Assembly: GCF_000807255.1 (NCBI RefSeq)
Contig: NZ_CP009268.1
Span: forward strand, 836,384 to 900,383
DNA length: 64,000 nucleotides
Origin: Clostridium pasteurianum DSM 525 = ATCC 6013
GTDB lineage: Bacteria > Bacillota > Clostridia > Clostridiales > Clostridiaceae
Direction of reading: 5' to 3'
Shown: positions 4,385 to 15,129 of the stretch, piece by piece
Layout: every line of letters begins with the position of its first letter
Position numbering within the stretch: position 1 is the first letter of the stretch
The notes under the pieces: model-generated
What the model saw: the letters and a program-made list of their open reading frames with translations, nothing else
Told to the model about the DNA's origin: nothing
The model's database searches: none
Translations under genes and position numbers: made by a program

Positions 4385-5032
4385 ATGAAATCAATATATG
4401 AATTAATAGATAAATCTCAAGAAACCTGGAATATTTTACAAGAGTGGAAAAGAGAATCTACTAATAAAGTTGAATTTTTGCCAGCAAATAAAAATAATGC
4501 TGAAAAAGTATTATATGATTTACAAGTAACAGCTAAATCTATATTGGGAGCTATATCGTACTATACAGGTGGTATATTGGTGGCAAATGGATGGGTTAGA
4601 ATATTGGGAAGTGGTGCAGATAATTTTAATAGGGATATTTCCATATGGAATAAGTTAAAATTAGATGGAGCATTATTAGTAGCAGATGATGTAATTGGAG
4701 GTTTTTTTGCAATAAATGGAGGATATTTTGAAGGTGAAGTAGGTAATATATTCTATCTTGCCCCAGATACATTGGAGTGGGAAGACTTGGAATTGAAGTT
4801 TTCAGATTTTGTTTATTGGACTTTTACAGGAGATATAAGTAAATTTTACGAAATATTTCGATGGGCAGAATGGGAAAAAGAAACTAGTAAAGTGACAGGT
4901 GATATGGGGATATTAAATTATCCTTTCTTGTGGGCAGAAAGTGAAGAAATAGAGAAGCGATCAAGAAAAGTTGTACCAATCGAGGAGTTATGGGGAATAA
5001 CAAATGAAAATAAAAAAAGACTAGGATTATAA
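4385..5032 (+). CDS. DUF2625-family protein, probable immunity protein
   Basis: A 215-aa soluble protein. The ATG at 4385 is preferred over the upstream GTG because the AGAAGGTGG site sits eight bases before it. It resembles the DUF2625 family: an EFLPANK segment near residue 35, LQVTAKSILGAISYYTGG, then WVRILGSG and the central GALLVADDVIGGFFAINGG. The strand pattern around GGFFAINGG recalls SUKH/SMI1-type immunity folds. It directly follows an orphan toxin tip. The family call is fairly firm; the immunity function is inferred from context and fold resemblance. Confidence 0.75.
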   Translation: MKSIYELIDKSQETWNILQEWKRESTNKVEFLPANKNNAEKVLYDLQVTAKSILGAISYYTGGILVANGWVRILGSGADNFNRDISIWNKLKLDGALLVADDVIGGFFAINGGYFEGEVGNIFYLAPDTLEWEDLELKFSDFVYWTFTGDISKFYEIFRWAEWEKETSKVTGDMGILNYPFLWAESEEIEKRSRKVVPIEELWGITNENKKRLGL

Positions 5033-5161
5033 TAAATTTACTTGTTATAGATATATGGAAATACAATGATACAATTAATAAAAGAATAGTTTTTATCAAT
5101 ATTATGAATGGGGAGTAAGTTCCTATTATATGGGAGATGACTTATTTAGTCATCTTTTTGC

Positions 5162-5251
5162 CATTATATAAGAAACGCCCAAGGAGATATTATAGGACTG
5201 TTTGATAAGGCAGGAACTCAGGTAGTATCCTATGTAAAAACAGGTACATAA
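5162..5251 (+). pseudogene. RHS core fossil, duplicate of 2240-2310
   Basis: About 65 bp nearly identical to the RHS gene around 2240-2310 (peptide RNAQGDIIGLFDKAGTQVV), then an unrelated tail and a stop at 5251. This is the scar expected when RHS tips are exchanged by recombination in the conserved core. Confidence 0.8.
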
Positions 5252-5379
5252 TATTAACCGCTTTAATATGCAAATTTAGTTACTATATTCCAAAAATGTT
5301 TTAGTTTATTAAAATTAATACGATAATAGAAATAGAGTGTATAGTTATATTATTAAGCAATATTAGGGGGGGATTTTAA

Positions 5380-6234
5380 ATGAAAAAAATTATAATTATT
5401 GCAATGAGTTTTTGTTTTACTTTTTTATTTGGAAGTATAGCCTTAGCTGCTACTTCTGTAAATGAAGTAGAACCAAATAGTTCAGCTAGTGAAGCGCAGC
5501 TTATAGAAAGATGTAATGTAGACCCTGCTAAGGTTATTAGTGGAAATTATGAAAATCAGAATACAGTAATTGGAAATGTTACAGATACTTCTGACGAAGA
5601 TTGGTATAAGGTTTATTTACCAGCAGATGAGAATACTATTTTATCTATTAATAGTTCAGCACTCAGTGGAACAGGTATTTTTGATGTTTATGATGAAAAT
5701 CTAAATCTCATTTCTACAGTTTTATACCAGAAAGATTATAGTGTTATGGGATTTAAAGCATATCGTATAGGTATTCCAACATCAGGTAACTATTATGTTA
5801 AAGTATCTAGTTCTTTAACTACAGGTGAATATAGATTTTCAATAGGTAAACCTACATATAATGTAGGCTCATATACGTACAAAGCTTTAAATCCATGTAC
5901 TTTAACTACAACAATAAGCTCAGTTCAAGCTACTTATGATCTTAGGAATATATCAACAATACCTAATAATGCAATTGTTTATTATCTTTCTATAGATGGT
6001 ACAAAAACTAATTATGCAAGTAATCAATACAGAAGTATAAAAATCGATGGGGATTCTTCATGGATTACTACATCTATGTACACATATGTTGCAGATGTAC
6101 CTGTTGCCAGCAATAAAATTTTAAAGAACCAATGGAGATTCAAGCTTGATGGAAGCGTATCTCAAAGTTATGGTACTTTTAGCTTAATTCCAGAAATTAG
6201 ATTTTCCTATGTGTATCCTGTGTTACCACAGTAA
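5380..6234 (+). CDS. Secreted protein with bacterial pre-peptidase C-terminal (PPC)-like domain
   Basis: A 284-aa exported protein. Residues 1-23 form a signal peptide (MKK, hydrophobic core, ALA-A cleavage-like site). Residues 30-160 resemble a PPC beta-sandwich: EPNSSASEAQ, GNVTDTSDEDWYKVYLP, and SGNYYVKVSS with GEYRFSIG. PPC domains usually accompany secreted proteases and help adhesion or secretion. Here no peptidase is attached, and the remaining 120 residues look like another beta domain of unknown type. It has a GGGGGG-rich ribosome site before ATG 5380 and stands alone. It probably acts outside the cell or on the surface; ligand unknown. Confidence 0.75.
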   Translation: MKKIIIIAMSFCFTFLFGSIALAATSVNEVEPNSSASEAQLIERCNVDPAKVISGNYENQNTVIGNVTDTSDEDWYKVYLPADENTILSINSSALSGTGIFDVYDENLNLISTVLYQKDYSVMGFKAYRIGIPTSGNYYVKVSSSLTTGEYRFSIGKPTYNVGSYTYKALNPCTLTTTISSVQATYDLRNISTIPNNAIVYYLSIDGTKTNYASNQYRSIKIDGDSSWITTSMYTYVADVPVASNKILKNQWRFKLDGSVSQSYGTFSLIPEIRFSYVYPVLPQ

Positions 6235-6330
6235 TTACAAAATTTATTATTTTAAATAAAGCTTATTTTTATACTATACACTTTTAAAGTAAGAAATGAT
6301 AAGATTAATGTAATGAATGGAGGTGAATGA

Positions 6331-7104
6331 ATGAGATTAGGTAATTATATGTATTCGTTATTAAATGCAAATATGGATTTAAATTATAAAAGACAATCAT
6401 TAATACAATCAAGTGTGAAGGCAATAAATAAAAATTTGAATAAAAGGCTATCTACAAATATAATAAATGATATATCTTTTGATTCAGGGAAACAGTTAAT
6501 TGCAAATAGTCAGCTACTTGCCTCTATTACTAAAGTAAAAGAGCAAGATGTAAAACCATTGATTGCTGATAACAATGTTCTTGATTTTGTTGAAGGTGAT
6601 TATTATAAAGTACAAACTGGTTCTGGTATAACAGCTATACTTACAAGTGGTGTTGATGGAACGGTTTATATGCCCTATGATAAGCTTAATCTTGGTGAAG
6701 ACTTTTCTTTAGCACCTTCAGATTATAGGGAGATTGGAAAAGTAGAAAAACTCTTTACTTATCTTTCAACGGATAAGACAGGTTATTGCGCTTATTCAAA
6801 TTATAGCAAAACAGAAATCAAGCAAATGTTAGGTAATGTTGGAATTAAACCAGGATGGTTTGAAATTAAAAATGATGGAAAATCCAATAAATTTTATATG
6901 CTAGATAATGGAATAATATATCCAGAATATCAAGTAGAGGATCAAAGAGGTGGTTTTAACCAAAGAAATTGGTTTAAGGATGGGTATACAGAAAATTCTA
7001 GTTTTATAGTTGATGGAAAAGAATATAAACTAGATGAGAATGGTCATTTAAACATTCCCGAAGGTACTGCTTGTGTTATGGAAAATATTAAAATGATAAA
7101 ATAA
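6331..7104 (+). CDS. Hypothetical protein, 257 aa
   Basis: Starts at the ATG at 6331 with GGAGGTGAATG directly upstream. I do not recognise the family. The first 75 residues are Asn/Lys-rich and helical with no signal peptide. Residues 85-130 (VEGDYYKVQTGSGITAILTSG) and the C-terminal third look beta-rich, with the repeated Gly/Asn turns seen in extracellular or phage-like structural proteins. It lies between a secreted protein and an Rpn scrap, so it may be part of the same accessory cargo. A hairpin follows its stop. Confidence 0.55.
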   Translation: MRLGNYMYSLLNANMDLNYKRQSLIQSSVKAINKNLNKRLSTNIINDISFDSGKQLIANSQLLASITKVKEQDVKPLIADNNVLDFVEGDYYKVQTGSGITAILTSGVDGTVYMPYDKLNLGEDFSLAPSDYREIGKVEKLFTYLSTDKTGYCAYSNYSKTEIKQMLGNVGIKPGWFEIKNDGKSNKFYMLDNGIIYPEYQVEDQRGGFNQRNWFKDGYTENSSFIVDGKEYKLDENGHLNIPEGTACVMENIKMIK

Positions 7105-7686: not shown

Positions 7687-7795
7687 AATATAAAAATATA
7701 TCATATTGATATTATATATAAATATAACTATAATATAATTATAATAAAAAAGCAGCAGCAATATATTATATTGTGAAATATGAAAGTTGTAGTTG

Positions 7796-7854
7796 ACTAG
7801 AAAGCTAGAGGCTAATTTTTCTTGAGAAAATTTGAGGAAAATTAGCCTCTTTTA
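7796..7854 (+). terminator. Small CTAG hairpin fused to a strong terminator
   Basis: A 4-bp hairpin CTAG-AAAG-CTAG (7797-7808) is followed at once by AGGC, which opens a terminator stem GAGGCTAATTTT/AAAATTAGCCTC ending in TTTT at 7853. The same layout recurs at 8851-8902. It lies about 50 bp upstream of the hydrolase start. Confidence 0.7.
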
Positions 7855-7903
7855 TATTGTTTAAAATTATAAAAAATAATATATTAAATGGAGATGAGAG
7901 CAG

Positions 7904-8722: not shown

Positions 8723-8846
8723 ACAATATAATATTACTTCTCTAGTATTAATTTTAGTTAATGAAAGTAAAAAGATATTGACAATAAAATAAATAAAGTT
8801 TATAATTAAGGAAAACAAAGTATATAAATTAAATATAAAATTACTG

Positions 8847-8902
8847 CTGACCGGAAAAACTGGAGGCCGTATTTCATATATATATGAAATACGGCCTCTT
8901 TT
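8847..8902 (+). terminator. Second hairpin-plus-terminator module
   Basis: The small hairpin CCGG-AAAAA-CTGG (8851-8863) is followed by AGGC and a near-perfect terminator stem (arms 8863-8880 and 8881-8898) with TTTT. It is built like the element at 7796 and shares the GCTGACC prefix with one at 9347. Its position downstream of the hydrolase fits a terminator. Confidence 0.75.
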
Positions 8903-8981
8903 ATTTAAAAACATATAATCAAATAGGAAATGTAGTAATTACCAAAAAAAATAAAATGCTATAAAATTTTACATATGGTAC

Positions 8982-9010
8982 TTGACATTTTTTATTATAT
9001 TGTATACTAT
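8982..9010 (+). promoter_or_regulatory. Likely sigma-A promoter for the Cys-run gene
   Basis: A consensus TTGACA at 8982-8987 and TATACT at 9003-9008 (15-nt spacer), or TACTAT at 9005-9010 (17-nt spacer). It is followed 45 bp later by an AAAGGAGG site and the ATG at 9055. Confidence 0.6.
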
Positions 9011-9054: not shown

Positions 9055-9336
9055 ATGAAATCATTAAAATTAAATTTATCAAATCAAAATTTAATAGTTA
9101 ATAATAAAGTATTCCCTTCTATAATTATGAATAAATGTATGAATGTTATGTGTTGTTGTACATGCTGTATGCTTGTTATGGTATGTTGCTGTTGTTGTGT
9201 AATAAATACAAAGGATATGGTATGTAAAATAGTAAGTGAAAATTTAAAATGGATTAAATATAAAACTACAGCGTTATTTATGAAATATTTTATGAGAAAT
9301 TTCATGGGCAGTACTGTAGTTTTTTCTATTGCCTAA
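9055..9336 (+). CDS. Small protein with runs of cysteine codons, terminator inside the frame
   Basis: A 93-codon frame with a strong AAAGGAGGGG ribosome site. Residues 28-58 hold 12 cysteines, including CCCTCC and five in a row, embedded in Met/Val-rich sequence. The rest is ordinary basic/hydrophobic sequence. No family is recognised. Candidates are a metal-binding or bacteriocin-like peptide, or a regulatory leader whose Cys codons sense charged tRNA-Cys. An intrinsic terminator (9263-9325) lies within the last third of the frame, so full-length product depends on read-through or on ribosomes melting the hairpin. That the frame is translated is supported by its ribosome site and promoter; function is unknown. 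Confidence 0.6.
   Translation: MKSLKLNLSNQNLIVNNKVFPSIIMNKCMNVMCCCTCCMLVMVCCCCCVINTKDMVCKIVSENLKWIKYKTTALFMKYFMRNFMGSTVVFSIA
9263..9325 (+). terminator. Intrinsic terminator inside the Cys-run reading frame
   Basis: Outer arms AAACTACAG and CTGTAGTTT, inner arms ATGAAAT and ATTTCAT, followed by a run of T. It ends 11 bases before the stop codon of the frame. Confidence 0.7.
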
Positions 9337-9346
9337 AAATTTCAAT

Positions 9347-9820
9347 GCTGCTGACCAGAAAAACTGGAGGCAGGGGGAACCACTAACTACTAGGTTGCTA
9401 AGAGGTATTACTTGGAGTAAAAAATAACCCACTGGAAAACCAGAGGTATAGCTTAAAGTAAGGAATAACCCACTGGAAAAACCAGAGGAATGACTTGGAG
9501 TAAGGAATAACCCACTGGAGAAACCAGAGGTATGGCTTAGAGTAAAGAATAACTCACTGGAAAACCAGAGGTATAGCTTAAAGTAAGGAATAACCCACTG
9601 GAAAAACCAGAGGAATGACTTGGAGTAAGGAATAACTCACTGGAAAAACCAGAGGTATGGCTTAGAGTAAGGAATAACTCACTGGAAAACCAGAGGCATA
9701 GCTTAGAGTAAAGAATAACTTACTGGAGAGACCAGAGGTATAACTTATGTAAACAAATCTGAACTTTAGCTAACTAGAAAACTAGAGGCAAATTATTATT
9801 AAAATTTTTAGACCAGCTAG
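9347..9820. repeat. Tandem array of 41-42 bp units, each with a small CTGG hairpin
   Basis: Eight units begin at 9431, 9472, 9514, 9556, 9597, 9639, 9681 and 9722, with degenerate relatives at about 9390 and 9773. Each unit starts with a hairpin CTGG-loop-CCAG followed by AGG, then a purine-rich tail ending AATAACCC or AATAACTC. Units 1-3 (9431-9555) are duplicated almost exactly as units 4-6 (9556-9680), differing at about three positions in 125. The unit at 9773 has CTAG/CTAG arms, so pairing is kept although the sequence changed. The array has no protein-coding frame and fills the space between the Cys-run gene and the IS110 element. It contains no unique spacers. Confidence 0.9.
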
Positions 9821-9942
9821 TAAAAGTCAATAAAAATTAAAAAAATAATTTATGAGTAAAAATTTGCATAGCAAATAATCCATTGAAAAAGCACGAACAA
9901 TGGAATTAATTGTAAGATGATTAGTCTTTAAGTTTTTAGCCG

Positions 9943-11238
9943 TTAGGCTGCTGTAGTAGAACCATTATTAAGATACATTTTAATATGTATTTTAGGATCA
10001 CGTATTTCATACTCTTTTTGGTTCCTTAGGACGGAGAATATGTAATTAACAAGTTTATGCATTATTGCCACTAAAGCAACCTTTTTGCTTTTACCATTTA
10101 GGTTTTCTTTATAGTAGGTAAGTAAAACTTTGTTTATAGGTTCACCGCTTCTACTGGTTCGTATGGATGCTAATGCCACAGCATATAAGGCTCTTCTGCC
10201 TATTCTGGTACCACGTTTAGACATAGTATTTTTATTACTGTTAAACTTACCAGATTGATTGACAGATGGGTCAATACCAAAGTAAGCAACTAAATGTTTA
10301 GCTTTTACAAAACCTTTAATATTGCCTATTTCACTCATTATTGTGATGGCAGTTAATTCACCAATACCTGGTATTGAGTAAATCAATTGAACATTTTTCT
10401 TAAATTGCTCTGAAATCCTATTGCTTTTCATCAATGAATGAATTTCATTTAATAAATTGTTAAGCTGATTTTCTAAAGTTTCTATTACAGAAATTGTGTT
10501 CATGATTTTTACAAACAGGCTAGGCGATTTAAGACCAATGTAAATAGCTTCTTCAGCAGCATCAATTAGCTTTTTATAGATTTTTTCACTATATGTTAGT
10601 CCTTTTCTTGAATGACTGCGAATAAGATCTATTAACTCATTTTTATCAGCATTTAAGATAGCTTTAGGACTTGAATATTCTTTTAAAATTGCTATTGATG
10701 TTTTGCAAGTAATGTTTGAAAAAACAGAGCTATAGCTAGGAAAAATAATTTTTAAGTCGGTAGAAAGCTTTTTCTTAAAAGTAGATTTACTATCAGTAAA
10801 CTTATAGTAATCTCTACAGAGAGCTTTTAAGGTATAAATTTCAATATCAAATGCAGAAGTATATTTAACATTTTGAAATTTGCCTATTTTAGCAATGGTT
10901 AATGCATCTTTTTTATCATTTTTCACTTTTCTTATGTCTCCATTCTTGTTACAATTAGTAATGAGTGGATTTAAGATACATGTTTCAAATGTATCCCTAA
11001 GAAAGTGGAAAAGAGTAAGATGGTATACACCAGTAGATTCCATGAAAATTGCCGTTTTCATGTTAAACTCTTCTTCCGCTTTTTTTATTTGATCTACTAG
11101 GTAATCAAAACCATTTCTATTGTGCTTAATTTTAAAAGGCTTTCTATAAACTTCACCGTCAGGTGCTAGTATAGCAACTACTGAAAAGTCTGCTGATACA
11201 TCGATTCCAACTATTGGTCTATAAAAAAATTTACTCAT
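9943..11238 (-). CDS. IS110-family transposase (DEDD recombinase)
   Basis: A 431-aa IS110-family transposase; the ATG at 11238 is chosen because GGAGAT precedes it by eight bases. The N-terminal DEDD/RuvC-like domain shows GIDVSAD, FMESTGVYH and NDKKDALTIAKIGK. The C-terminal transposase_20 domain shows YSIPGIGELTAI and the AYFGIDPSVNQSGKF motif with SKRGTRIGRRAL. IS110 enzymes act with a bridge RNA encoded in a non-coding end, and insert without target duplication or inverted repeats. The protein is full length. The long upstream non-coding stretch (11239 to about 11560) is described separately. Element ends were not determined. Confidence 0.95.
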   Translation of the reverse strand: MSKFFYRPIVGIDVSADFSVVAILAPDGEVYRKPFKIKHNRNGFDYLVDQIKKAEEEFNMKTAIFMESTGVYHLTLFHFLRDTFETCILNPLITNCNKNGDIRKVKNDKKDALTIAKIGKFQNVKYTSAFDIEIYTLKALCRDYYKFTDSKSTFKKKLSTDLKIIFPSYSSVFSNITCKTSIAILKEYSSPKAILNADKNELIDLIRSHSRKGLTYSEKIYKKLIDAAEEAIYIGLKSPSLFVKIMNTISVIETLENQLNNLLNEIHSLMKSNRISEQFKKNVQLIYSIPGIGELTAITIMSEIGNIKGFVKAKHLVAYFGIDPSVNQSGKFNSNKNTMSKRGTRIGRRALYAVALASIRTSRSGEPINKVLLTYYKENLNGKSKKVALVAIMHKLVNYIFSVLRNQKEYEIRDPKIHIKMYLNNGSTTAA

Positions 11239-11560
11239 AAAATAATATCTCCTTTGCTTTGTGAGATAGAATAGATATTCCATTTCTATCAGTAATTCTA
11301 TAACCTTGTTTGTGACACGGGTAATTCCCAAAGGGAAACCCAACCAGCTAAACATAGAACTCTCACTGATGGAATGATACGCTAATTTTCGGGTATCAAT
11401 GACTCGTTAGAGTTACTTCCCAGGAGGAATACATCTATCTTCTATTCAGGAGATATTATACATCAATATTTACTAGTATGGATTCCCACTTGGGAAAAAT
11501 AGAAAACTAAGTTAGATGAGATTAGTACACCCTATCGGGTAGAAAATCTTCGAATAAATT
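11239..11560 (-). ncRNA. Candidate bridge-RNA region of the IS110 element
   Basis: About 320 nt of non-coding sequence upstream of the transposase, much more than a promoter needs. It contains short self-complementary stretches (TTCCCAAAGGGAA; GGATTCCCACTTGGG; CCCTATCGGG). In IS110-group elements the end on the 5' side of the transposase gene encodes the bridge RNA. The location fits, but target and donor loops were not assigned. Confidence 0.4.
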
Positions 11561-11646
11561 AAAAGAAATGAGTTGTAATGTTCGTTAGAATTCAAGATAG
11601 TTTTCTATTGAATGTTATGACTACATTATACAAGGAGGATATAAAA

Positions 11647-12111
11647 ATGGAAACAAAAATGATGGGTACAGGTATGAATATGATGATGGGTAAAGGAATG
11701 ATGATGAATAACGGTATGGGCATGATGGATATGCCAATGACACAAATGAACATGATGATGATTCCACGTATGGAAATGAAAATGGAAAAATGCGAAAATG
11801 GAATGAAAATGATGTGTATGTCAAAAGATGAAACAGCAGTTGCAATGATGCAGAATCTTTGCTCAATGCTAAAGGGCGGAATGACAAGTATGTCCATGAT
11901 GATGAACGGAATGAAAATGATGGAATGCAACATGATGATGGGAATGTGTAAATGTGAAATGACTATGGATGGAATGTGCATGACTTGGACTAGTGGTGAT
12001 GAAATGATGTGTTCTATGATTCAGCGATGTTGTGAATGTATGATGAGCATGATGGAATGTGGATGTACTGCTATGATGTGTATGAACAATACTCCAGTTT
12101 GTTGCTGCTAG
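11647..12111 (+). CDS. Extremely Met-rich, Cys-rich small protein
   Basis: A 154-aa protein with ACAAGGAGG just upstream of ATG 11647. By my count 55 residues are Met (about 36 percent) and 17 are Cys. The N-terminal third is nearly all M, G, N and K; the C-terminal half adds CxC, CC and a terminal CCC. Hydrophobic Ala/Leu/Val/Ile are scarce, so it is not an ordinary membrane protein. No family recognised. Thioether and thiol density of this kind suggests soft-metal (Cu(I), Ag(I), Hg) binding or an oxidation sink, by analogy with Met-rich copper proteins. A terminator at 12197 follows. The coding call is strong because the frame, ribosome site and terminator agree; the function is inference. 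Confidence 0.8.
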   Translation: METKMMGTGMNMMMGKGMMMNNGMGMMDMPMTQMNMMMIPRMEMKMEKCENGMKMMCMSKDETAVAMMQNLCSMLKGGMTSMSMMMNGMKMMECNMMMGMCKCEMTMDGMCMTWTSGDEMMCSMIQRCCECMMSMMECGCTAMMCMNNTPVCCC

Positions 12112-12196
12112 GGTTCCATTCTTAGTACACAAATATGTTATATACACTTTTTTCTAAAATGGGAAAAAGTCCTGGTAAACATATATGATTTATAGG

Positions 12197-12237
12197 ATAT
12201 ATCACAATGAGCCCTAGGTTCATTGTGATATATTTTT
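12197..12237 (+). terminator. Terminator after the Met-rich gene
   Basis: Perfect 14-bp arms ATATATCACAATGA and TCATTGTGATATAT with a 9-nt loop, followed by TTTTT. Confidence 0.85.
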
Positions 12238-12298
12238 ATATAATTTGAATTTTTATTTTTATCATAAGCTGATATTATCTTATTAAATAAAGTTGATT

Positions 12299-12432
12299 TC
12301 AACCTGACTAACTTGGCGTAAGTCTCCCCCTTCTTCAAGTGAGAGTTTGACGCCAAGTAAGCCATGCATTTGCAGTTCTAAAATTCAAGATGGGGTAAAA
12401 GAATCCCCACCTGAATTAAGAACTTGCTTCAA
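12299..12432 (+). repeat. Expandable-arm structured repeat, copy A (no inserted subunits)
   Basis: First of four copies in the window. Fixed 5' block CCTGACTAACTTGGCGTAAG; its ACTTGGCGT pairs with ACGCCAAGT in the 3' block. A second long hairpin (GTTCTAAAATTCA...TGAATTAAGAAC, with a GGGG/CCCC core) follows, and the element ends GCTTCAA. Here the central arm is only a CTTCTTCAAG turn. It lies between convergent genes. Confidence 0.85.
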
Positions 12433-14723
12433 TAGTTGCTTATATTTATATAATTTACAGGGAGTTTAGCTTCCTTATCTGCAAAGAGTTCACTCCAATG
12501 ATCCTCTATATAAGGCATATATTCATTAATAGTATCTCTAACAGCTTTAAGGTAAGGTATATAGATATTATCCAGTACTGATTGGTCAAAGTTTAAATGT
12601 TTTAGTTTCCATAGGTCATATTCATTTTCGTTATAAAAATGCATACTTCCAAAATGATAGAATACCAGCATATCATTACCTATATATACTTTCCCATTAA
12701 TATTATGAACATCGTAGTGATTGTTATATACTACATTCCAAGGAGCTGCATTTATTCCAAGGCTATTTTCAATTTTAATTCCCACGAATTTTAGAGGAAC
12801 CTGATCAAGATATTTTTGATCTCCCCATCTTTCATGTTCAGGCTGAGGATTGTCAAAACACCATTCTATACATTTCTTTTTCCACCATGTTAATATTCTA
12901 CGAGTTTCTTTGAGCTTTTTAAATCCTATGAAACCCGCTTGAAATCTTCCGTGTATTCTTTCATAATCATAGTTGTCTCTTTGGGTACATATATAGAAGT
13001 AATATCCTACCCAATCTTTGATGATACGGGAAGGATTTGAGAAGAAGAACAGGTCAGCATCACAGTATATGACATAATCTACATCATAATTATCAAGTAC
13101 GTATTCTACTAATGGAGCTTTCAGAGTCCAGCAGAGTTCAGTTGCAGTTCTGGTCTTTTTACATCTTCTAATTTCCTCATCTTCTAATTTTGGCAAAGGT
13201 ACAAGGGTTACATTTTCAAGTTCCATGTCTTTTAATATGGAGTAAATAAGTTCATCTATGCAGCATATCCACAGATGGAAATTGTTGCCGTTTGTTTTCA
13301 AAGATCTATAGAAAGTAAGTCCCTTTATTAAATAGTCTTTGCTCATAAGGGTACAGAAGTATTTAGTATCATCATCTGCTTTAATTCTATACTCTGAAGG
13401 AAGATACCTATAATAGGTCTGTGCATCGCTTAAAGGCTTTGTTGCGAAGAGCTTATCTAATACGCTGTTGTCAAAATGTTTTACTCTATTAATGCATTCT
13501 CTTATAGTACTTAAATAAGGTATATATATATAATCTTTTATAGTCCTTCTTATATGGATATAATTAAAAGACCATAAATCAAATTCATCAGAATTAAAAA
13601 TGGCTATGGTTGCAAAGTGGAAGACAACAAGCTTCTCTTTTTCTATATATACATAGTCATCCTTTTTATATATATTGTAATCATTGTTATAAACACAGTT
13701 CCAAGGAGCTGCATTTATACCGTAGTTATCAGATACTTTTACACCAGAATACATCTCAGGTACTTTATCCAGATATTTTTGGTCACCAAATCTATCCATA
13801 TTAGGTTCTGGATTTGCAGAACACCACTCAATACATTTACTGCGCCAATAATCAAGACAACTAAGTGCATTAGGGGTATTTTTGAAACCAATAAGGCCTG
13901 CCTGATATTTTCCATACATAGCTTCAACCCACTGAAGATCTCTTTGAAGGCATAAGAATACATCATTGCTGCCCCATTCATCATATATTGCCTTAGGATC
14001 AGAGAAAAAGTATAAATCCGAATCACAATATATTACATCGGGTACTTTATAAGTATCCAATACATATCTGATTAAAGGAGCCTTCAGTGTCCAGCAGTAT
14101 TCGTTAGTTTTTCTGGAAGATTTAATAGATAGAAGGGCAGCGTCTTCTAAATCTTCAACTCTAAAAACATGCAGATTATACAAGTTTAATTTAGATAATA
14201 TATAACAGGCTATAGGATCCATACAGCATACCCATAAATTAAAATTATTTGAGGTATTTTTTAGTGATTTATACAGTGCCAGTACTTTGAAAGTATAATC
14301 CTTACCTGCTACAGTACAAAAATTACAAGAACTATTCACAGCATAATTTACTGGAGGAAACCATGCGGTATTCTCAGGTCTTGAAGCTTCAGCAGGAGGA
14401 GTCCATGGAGTATTCTCAGGCTTTTGGGTTTCGGAAGGAGGAGTCCATGGGGTGTTCTCAGGCTTTTGAGCTTCAGCAGGAGGAGTCCATGGAGTATTTT
14501 CAGCCTTTGGAGCCTCGATCCTTGGAACCTCTTGAACATGAGATTCTCCCGGTCTATCAGCTTGTTTTGCTTCATTAACATTCCCATATTTATTTTCATT
14601 TATTTCAGGAGATTGATTAGGTTTTTTATTAACTTTTTTTCTTTTAACTTTTTTCTTTATATGAGGAGATTCAATGCATTCCAGTAAATATTCATCATTG
14701 AAAATAATTCTTTTCCTAGGCAT
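12429..14723 (-). CDS. Double-domain glycosyltransferase with Pro-rich repeat linker
   Basis: A 764-aa cytosolic protein with two tandem GT-A-type glycosyltransferase domains of the same family. The ATG at 14723 is chosen because AGGTGG lies eight bases upstream; a GTG at 14735 is the alternative. Domain 1 (about residues 130-420) and domain 2 (about 450-750) share FCT..(G/S)KDY, CWTLKAPL, the DxD sugar-nucleotide motif (CDSDLYFF and CDADLFFF), QAG(L/F)IGFK, GDQKYLD and GINAAPWN. Residues 1-60 are very basic. Residues 70-125 contain four 14-aa repeats of the PENTPWTPPAE type. Both domains keep DxD, so both may be active, perhaps adding alternate sugars. The CDP-sugar genes begin 400 bp away on the other strand and may supply the donor. 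Confidence 0.85.
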   Translation of the reverse strand: MPRKRIIFNDEYLLECIESPHIKKKVKRKKVNKKPNQSPEINENKYGNVNEAKQADRPGESHVQEVPRIEAPKAENTPWTPPAEAQKPENTPWTPPSETQKPENTPWTPPAEASRPENTAWFPPVNYAVNSSCNFCTVAGKDYTFKVLALYKSLKNTSNNFNLWVCCMDPIACYILSKLNLYNLHVFRVEDLEDAALLSIKSSRKTNEYCWTLKAPLIRYVLDTYKVPDVIYCDSDLYFFSDPKAIYDEWGSNDVFLCLQRDLQWVEAMYGKYQAGLIGFKNTPNALSCLDYWRSKCIEWCSANPEPNMDRFGDQKYLDKVPEMYSGVKVSDNYGINAAPWNCVYNNDYNIYKKDDYVYIEKEKLVVFHFATIAIFNSDEFDLWSFNYIHIRRTIKDYIYIPYLSTIRECINRVKHFDNSVLDKLFATKPLSDAQTYYRYLPSEYRIKADDDTKYFCTLMSKDYLIKGLTFYRSLKTNGNNFHLWICCIDELIYSILKDMELENVTLVPLPKLEDEEIRRCKKTRTATELCWTLKAPLVEYVLDNYDVDYVIYCDADLFFFSNPSRIIKDWVGYYFYICTQRDNYDYERIHGRFQAGFIGFKKLKETRRILTWWKKKCIEWCFDNPQPEHERWGDQKYLDQVPLKFVGIKIENSLGINAAPWNVVYNNHYDVHNINGKVYIGNDMLVFYHFGSMHFYNENEYDLWKLKHLNFDQSVLDNIYIPYLKAVRDTINEYMPYIEDHWSELFADKEAKLPVNYINISNY

Positions 14724-15129
14724 CTTACTATCCACCTCTCATATGGTATTTTGTACACTGAAAAGTTTTTAATAGAATTTCACAAACTTATTTGCATACC
14801 TTTTATTTATCCTGTGACTGCCAGCTTCAATAGTTAAAGGTAAGTAGTAAAAAAGGCTGTATCACCGGATGATATATTTAAACTCAGTGGAAAAGTATTT
14901 CCACCAAGGAGAATTCAAGTATATTGTCAATATGAAATTTTTATTAATTCAGTTAGTGTGCAATCTTGTCACTGTTACTATATGTTAAAAGGCTTATTAT
15001 AGTGACATCTTAGACAGGTTTTGAAGGATAAAATAATTTACTTAACCAATTAACACAATGGTTTCTATAATCATACTATATTGTTGAGAAAACAATTAAA
15101 ATCTATAAGAAAATTCAGGGGAGATATGT
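14724..15129. promoter_or_regulatory. Divergent intergenic region between the glycosyltransferase and rfbF
   Basis: About 400 bp with no gene. It must carry both divergent promoters. I see a hairpin GTGGAAA-AGTA-TTTCCAC (about 14886-14903) and an imperfect inverted repeat TGTCACT...AGTGACA (about 14967-15007), which may be regulatory. The rfbF ribosome site GGGGAGA is at 15118. Confidence 0.4.

Follow-up and report, generated by a model that had tools for sequence, protein, structure and literature searches.

The window analysed here is a stretch of 64,000 nucleotides from Clostridium pasteurianum DSM 525 (contig NZ_CP009268.1, forward strand, positions 836,384 to 900,383), and the gene under study, at 11647-12111 on its forward strand, encodes a protein of 154 amino acids with 55 methionines (35.7%) and 17 cysteines (11.0%). 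These values, obtained by translation, agree exactly with the counts of the first-pass annotation (about 36% methionine), and the ribosome-binding site and terminator that it had described are also found: the Shine-Dalgarno sequence AAGGAGG precedes the gene, and a strong intrinsic terminator hairpin follows it at 12194-12236 on the same strand. Isoleucine, leucine, valine, phenylalanine, tyrosine and tryptophan together account for 7 of the 154 residues; methionine is thus the near-sole hydrophobic residue. Motifs of methionine and cysteine spacing, metal-type motifs included, are not enriched over composition, and the methionines are spaced in a random-like manner for such a composition. The C-terminal part splits into two halves with a weak alignment to each other (P ~0.002 by shuffling). 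The AlphaFold2 model is mixed alpha/beta and of low confidence (pLDDT 44.7), and no conclusion is built on it. A frame on the reverse strand at 12429-14735 encodes a 768-amino-acid protein with two similar halves of glycosyltransferase-like look, for which Pfam gave no significant match; a proline-rich repeat lies within it, at 14353-14513.

C. pasteurianum DSM 525 has a single copy of the Met/Cys gene. Six intact copies are present in five Clostridium genomes, with 85-96% identity to the window protein; each contains 51-55 methionines and 15-18 cysteines, and 46 of the 55 methionines and 13 of the 17 cysteines are invariant across the six. A second genome of the window genus (G003) harbors two tandem copies, 94-96% identical, plus a fused remnant (locus L005), and further copies occur in the sister genus, C. 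luticellarii among them; the copies in G131 and G141 (loci L025 and L026) are decayed. The gene or its remains are restricted to 7 of the 208 genomes of the family, spread over these two genera. Among 399 genomes covering the phylum there is no relative outside the window genome, C. luticellarii is the sole match in a scan of GTDB r220 species genomes, and no relative was found in plasmids, viral contigs, Pfam, NCBIfam or the PDB. A search for hidden ancestry through replacement of methionine by isoleucine or leucine did not lead to a Pfam family, and no further genomic match was convincing; a literature search found no paper on the protein. The suggestion that it may define a new family is therefore borne out: as judged from these searches, the protein is a new family.

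The six intact copies have dN values of 0.009-0.12 at high or saturated dS, so that a chance open reading frame can be dismissed, and pN/pS lies between 0.07 and 0.16. The window copy compared with G003 gives 0.08-0.10, and its coding sequence shows no decay. By these ratios the amino-acid sequence is under strong purifying selection, and the earlier statement that this is a real gene is upheld.

The first-pass annotation had also noticed a second Cys/Met-rich frame 2.3 kb away, behind an IS110 copy. This frame (9055-9336, forward strand) encodes 93 amino acids with the pattern CCC-T-CC ... CCCCC, is preceded by the Shine-Dalgarno sequence GGAGGGG, and overlaps an intrinsic terminator at 9263-9325 (forward strand; -14.6 kcal/mol, then a T run). 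A promoter-like site for the leader transcript lies upstream at 8982-9010 on the forward strand (TTGACA, 17 nt, TACTAT), a match to the consensus only, in a region that overall shows no excess of such matches over shuffled sequences. Orthologues of 25-89 amino acids occur in G003, C. luticellarii, G139 and G141, and the relatives have equivalent terminators; the frame is 93 and 89 amino acids long in the window genus, and in the sister genus 25-34 amino acids, where CCMCCC is conserved. In relatives that lack the IS110 element, a promoter region, the poly-Cys frame, an intrinsic terminator, hairpins and the Met/Cys gene follow one another in this order, the two frames being ~0.2-0.4 kb apart. 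From this comparison the proximity of the two frames is ancestral, and the 9055-9336 frame is built like a leader peptide, namely a short Cys-rich open reading frame with a Shine-Dalgarno sequence adjoining an intrinsic terminator. The frame of each of the five intact leaders ends within the 5' arm of the terminator, a single base ahead of this arm, in the loop or past the terminator. A second, automatic set of coordinates agrees for G003, G139 and G141; for the window and C. luticellarii, where it gave a truncated or out-of-frame reading, the first set is used. Most of the cysteine codons lie upstream of the 5' arm. An alternative antiterminator pairing was not apparent: for G139 and G141, pairing of the terminator 5' arm with upstream sequence does not exceed that in shuffled leaders, and for the window and G003 a fraction of 0.15-0.18 of shuffled leaders pairs as well with it. 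Since a classical antiterminator is not seen, we propose occlusion of the terminator by the ribosome instead. G132 keeps an intact Met/Cys protein and has lost the poly-Cys frame, which argues against the leader being strictly required. Among the poly-Cys pattern matches listed in six genomes, those at the Met/Cys loci alone have hairpins behind them.

In the window, the 2.3 kb from the end of the poly-Cys frame to the Met/Cys gene include the IS110 element (9808 to ~11629, reverse strand; transposase at ~9943-11240), which separates the leader array from the Shine-Dalgarno sequence of the gene. Two further, nearly identical copies in the genome served to map its ends. The interval from IS110 to the Met/Cys gene shows no promoter-like site, so that expression is not assured in this genome; here the gene could be silent, depend on transcription from the insertion sequence, or be deregulated. 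The three near-identical IS110 copies (window 9808-11629; L089, ~11023-12862; L102, ~4517-6348) all sit directly before the Shine-Dalgarno sequence AAGGAGGA, in front of the Met/Cys gene, a nifH-like gene and an M20 peptidase gene, respectively, which suggests that this IS110 prefers ribosome-binding sites as its target. Rfam matches to RT-18 and RT-17 at 11484-11568 (35 and 30 bits, under gathering thresholds of ~41 and ~40) fall within the transposase-upstream end of the element, and these families might include IS110-end RNAs.

Between the leader and the insertion lies an array of ~10 short hairpins (9348-9790, forward strand) with the core CYRG-loop-CYRGAGG, of which the middle eight form a 42-bp tandem repeat and none has a terminator of its own. 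The hairpin takes the form TGACYRG-AAAAA-CYRGAGG (also with a trailing C, GAGGC) and occurs in the window at 7790-7870, 8844-8907 and 9348-9790. A covariance model finds ~50 copies in the window genome and matches in 70 of the 208 Clostridiaceae genomes. Across 73 distinct sequences all four base pairs form in every one, and three of the pairs show compensatory changes; double-changed cells number 31, versus 7.3 after shuffling. Because the alignment follows the model, it is biased toward the structure. Rfam contains no plausible family at E values up to 1 for the array or for eight single-copy loci, and our literature search found no paper on the hairpin either. The array stands between leader and Met/Cys gene in both genera, with only one to three hairpins at some loci. 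Ranked by hairpin count, the seven genomes that carry the gene or its remains come first among the 208 (36 to 14, the next being 12, among the matches listed), a ranking influenced by array copies and by relatedness.

A same-strand gene lies within 500 nt of 78 of the 87 hairpin copies at 40 sampled loci. Behind these hairpins are 18 nitrogenase-component-1-like genes, genes for NifH and NifB, sulfonate/taurine-type ABC transporter genes, genes for OAH sulfhydrylases (homocysteine synthase) and cysteine synthase, metK (in two genera), two Cu-type P-type ATPases, a DsbD/cupredoxin-type protein and molybdenum-cofactor genes, in a tally of loci that were selected for hairpin matches and that carries no background rate. 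The nitrogenase-like proteins score far under the cut-offs for true NifD, and by analogy a role as organosulfur reductases is plausible. At least 34 of the 87 copies have terminators, mostly starting at the GAGG of the hairpin, and shuffled sequences have none, whereas 0 of the 10 hairpins of the window array have one; single copies thus look like attenuators, and the array looks different in kind. From its sequence context, the hairpin appears to be an undescribed attenuator class controlling genes for nitrogenase-like proteins, sulfonate-type transport and Met/Cys synthesis. A region of ~90 kb in the window genome (G000:C1:3610001-3700000; loci L089-L093) has hairpin leaders throughout; its genes encode many nitrogenase-like pairs along with OAH sulfhydrylases, cysteine synthases, ABC transporters of the sulfonate type, MoeA, TatA and Cu-type ATPases. 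A covarying RNA hairpin absent from Rfam and spread over a third of the family's genomes merits a study of its own.

In the sister genus, C. luticellarii, G132 and G139 have an opposite-strand SAM riboswitch (RF00162, 84.7-89.7 bits) just 3' of the Met/Cys gene, with promoter-like sequence (17-nt spacing) and a terminator-like hairpin ahead of the Met/Cys gene. The decayed loci of G131 and G141 gave no SAM riboswitch match, and none lies antisense to the intact loci of the window genus. As described in PMC9943018 for the work of Andre et al. 2008, high SAM stops antisense transcription at the ubiG-mccB-mccA operon of C. acetobutylicum, and expression is thereby permitted. The operon has the arrangement found at the three sister-genus loci, an opposite-strand SAM aptamer at the 3' end that is read, from its promoter to its terminator, against the regulated gene, and shares the theme of sulfur amino acids. 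It differs in that ubiG-mccB-mccA encodes enzymes of Met-to-Cys conversion, whereas at these loci the Met/Cys-rich protein belongs to no known family, and in that the antisense RNA is here predicted from sequence; the riboswitch is confined to the sister genus and absent from the window. The antisense strand of G139 also carries an amino-acid permease gene farther on, and the transcript may also, or instead, serve that gene.

In our view the Met/Cys protein is best explained as a store of methionine and cysteine, or an overflow sink for them, that is built by ribosomes and whose production follows the supply of sulfur amino acids, a reading in which our confidence is evenly balanced. The sequences themselves show the family and the selection on it, the order of leader, terminator and array, the riboswitch on the opposite strand, and the hairpin common to the locus and to sulfur genes; how attenuation is oriented, what the antisense RNA does, storage and degradation are deduced from these. 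In the ancestral arrangement, the promoter would drive the poly-Cys leader peptide. With Cys-tRNA plentiful, the ribosome would complete the leader and occupy or unwind the 5' arm of the terminator, and RNA polymerase would then transcribe the hairpin array and go on into the Met/Cys gene; with cysteine short, the ribosome would stall at the cysteine codons upstream of the terminator, which could then form. We infer this direction of attenuation, with the gene on when cysteine is available, from the geometry of leader and terminator. In the sister genus a second gate may operate, low SAM allowing antisense RNA to enter the Met/Cys gene and high SAM stopping it, so that both putative switches would permit expression only when methionine and cysteine are plentiful. 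Once sulfur runs short, the protein would presumably be degraded, releasing methionine and cysteine, and the hairpin-controlled sulfur-acquisition genes would be turned on. The retention of methionine and cysteine under purifying selection speaks for this reading; methionine as the near-sole hydrophobic residue and the unenriched spacing motifs are expected if sulfur content, and not a binding site, is selected. The leader (Cys-tRNA), the antisense riboswitch (SAM) and the hairpin (sulfur genes) all concern sulfur amino acids. Also in its favor are the lack of a riboswitch match at the two decayed loci and the top hairpin counts of the seven genomes with the gene or its remains. A reserve or sink fits best. 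Counting against it are the loss of the poly-Cys frame in G132, the intact loci of the window genus being without the antisense riboswitch, the IS110 that splits leader from gene in the window, the antisense transcript of G139 with its possible service to the permease, and a hairpin-linked set that includes Cu-type ATPases and molybdenum-cofactor genes.

The main rival is a cytosolic, metallothionein-like protein sequestering soft metals such as Cu(I), Ag(I) or Hg(II) with thioethers and thiols as ligands. The richness in both residues suits such a role, and copies of the same hairpin precede two P-type ATPases of the Cu type as well as a DsbD/cupredoxin-type protein. Against it, no metal-binding family was matched, the spacing motifs are unenriched, and it is to sulfur amino acids that the leader codons, the antisense SAM riboswitch and most genes behind hairpins relate. 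The anatomy of the locus points to sulfur status over metals, and we regard metal sequestration as unlikely, if the foremost of the alternatives. The first-pass annotation had proposed soft-metal storage or a sulfur-rich oxidant sink; both stay conceivable, the former through the hairpin-linked ATPases, and comparison has added little to either, given the motifs and the mainly sulfur- and methionine-related linked genes. The oxidant sink, a redox buffer of methionine and cysteine repaired by methionine sulfoxide reductases, is favored by composition only. No oxidative-stress or Msr gene adjoins the loci that were read, and a redox buffer would not be expected to respond to sulfur status; we hold this reading to be the least probable of all.

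The transcript could also outweigh the protein, the terminator-less array acting as a decoy that binds a factor controlling the sulfur-acquisition genes and being made when sulfur is plentiful. The lack of terminators in the window array, set against their frequency in single copies, and its place between leader and gene in both genera speak for such a decoy, but the protein sequence is strongly selected, some loci have just one to three hairpins, and the binding factor is hypothetical; we hold this to be quite improbable. A slightly less doubtful, still tentative combination keeps the Met/Cys reserve, gated by the poly-Cys leader (and by the antisense SAM riboswitch in relatives), and lets the hairpin array of its mRNA serve as a decoy that lowers the sulfur-acquisition regulon while the store fills. 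Finally, the gene might be a relic in the window genome and a dispensable accessory elsewhere. Decay in G131 and G141, the remnant in G003, and the IS110 insertion followed by no promoter-like site are consistent with this, yet the window copy is intact with low pN/pS relative to G003, where the gene has been duplicated in tandem, and we give a relic no better prospects than a pure decoy.

A Met/Cys reserve under sulfur control has partial parallels among known systems. In mycobacteria, poly-cysteine leader open reading frames act as cysteine-responsive attenuators; the frame described here resembles them in being short and placing a run of cysteine codons before a sulfur-related gene, and differs in having a Shine-Dalgarno sequence, in overlapping an intrinsic terminator, and in a geometry that suggests expression at cysteine sufficiency. 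Bacterial copper-storage proteins and metallothioneins likewise concentrate many sulfur ligands in a small protein, whereas the protein studied here has no match in Pfam, NCBIfam or the PDB, about three methionines per cysteine, and a low-confidence model that is mixed alpha/beta. Plants possess sulfur-rich seed storage proteins, the 2S albumins and delta-zeins, which share with it the enrichment in methionine and cysteine as a putative amino-acid reserve; they are unrelated in sequence and organism, its methionine content is far higher, and its storage role is proposed from the locus. What is new is the protein family and this proposed role, the control devices being singly of known kinds. 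Known bacterial reserves hold carbon, nitrogen (cyanophycin), phosphate and elemental sulfur, and we know of no dedicated bacterial protein reserve of sulfur amino acids; if our reading is true, the Met/Cys protein would be one, a new kind of bacterial reserve, with a control region that is directly testable.
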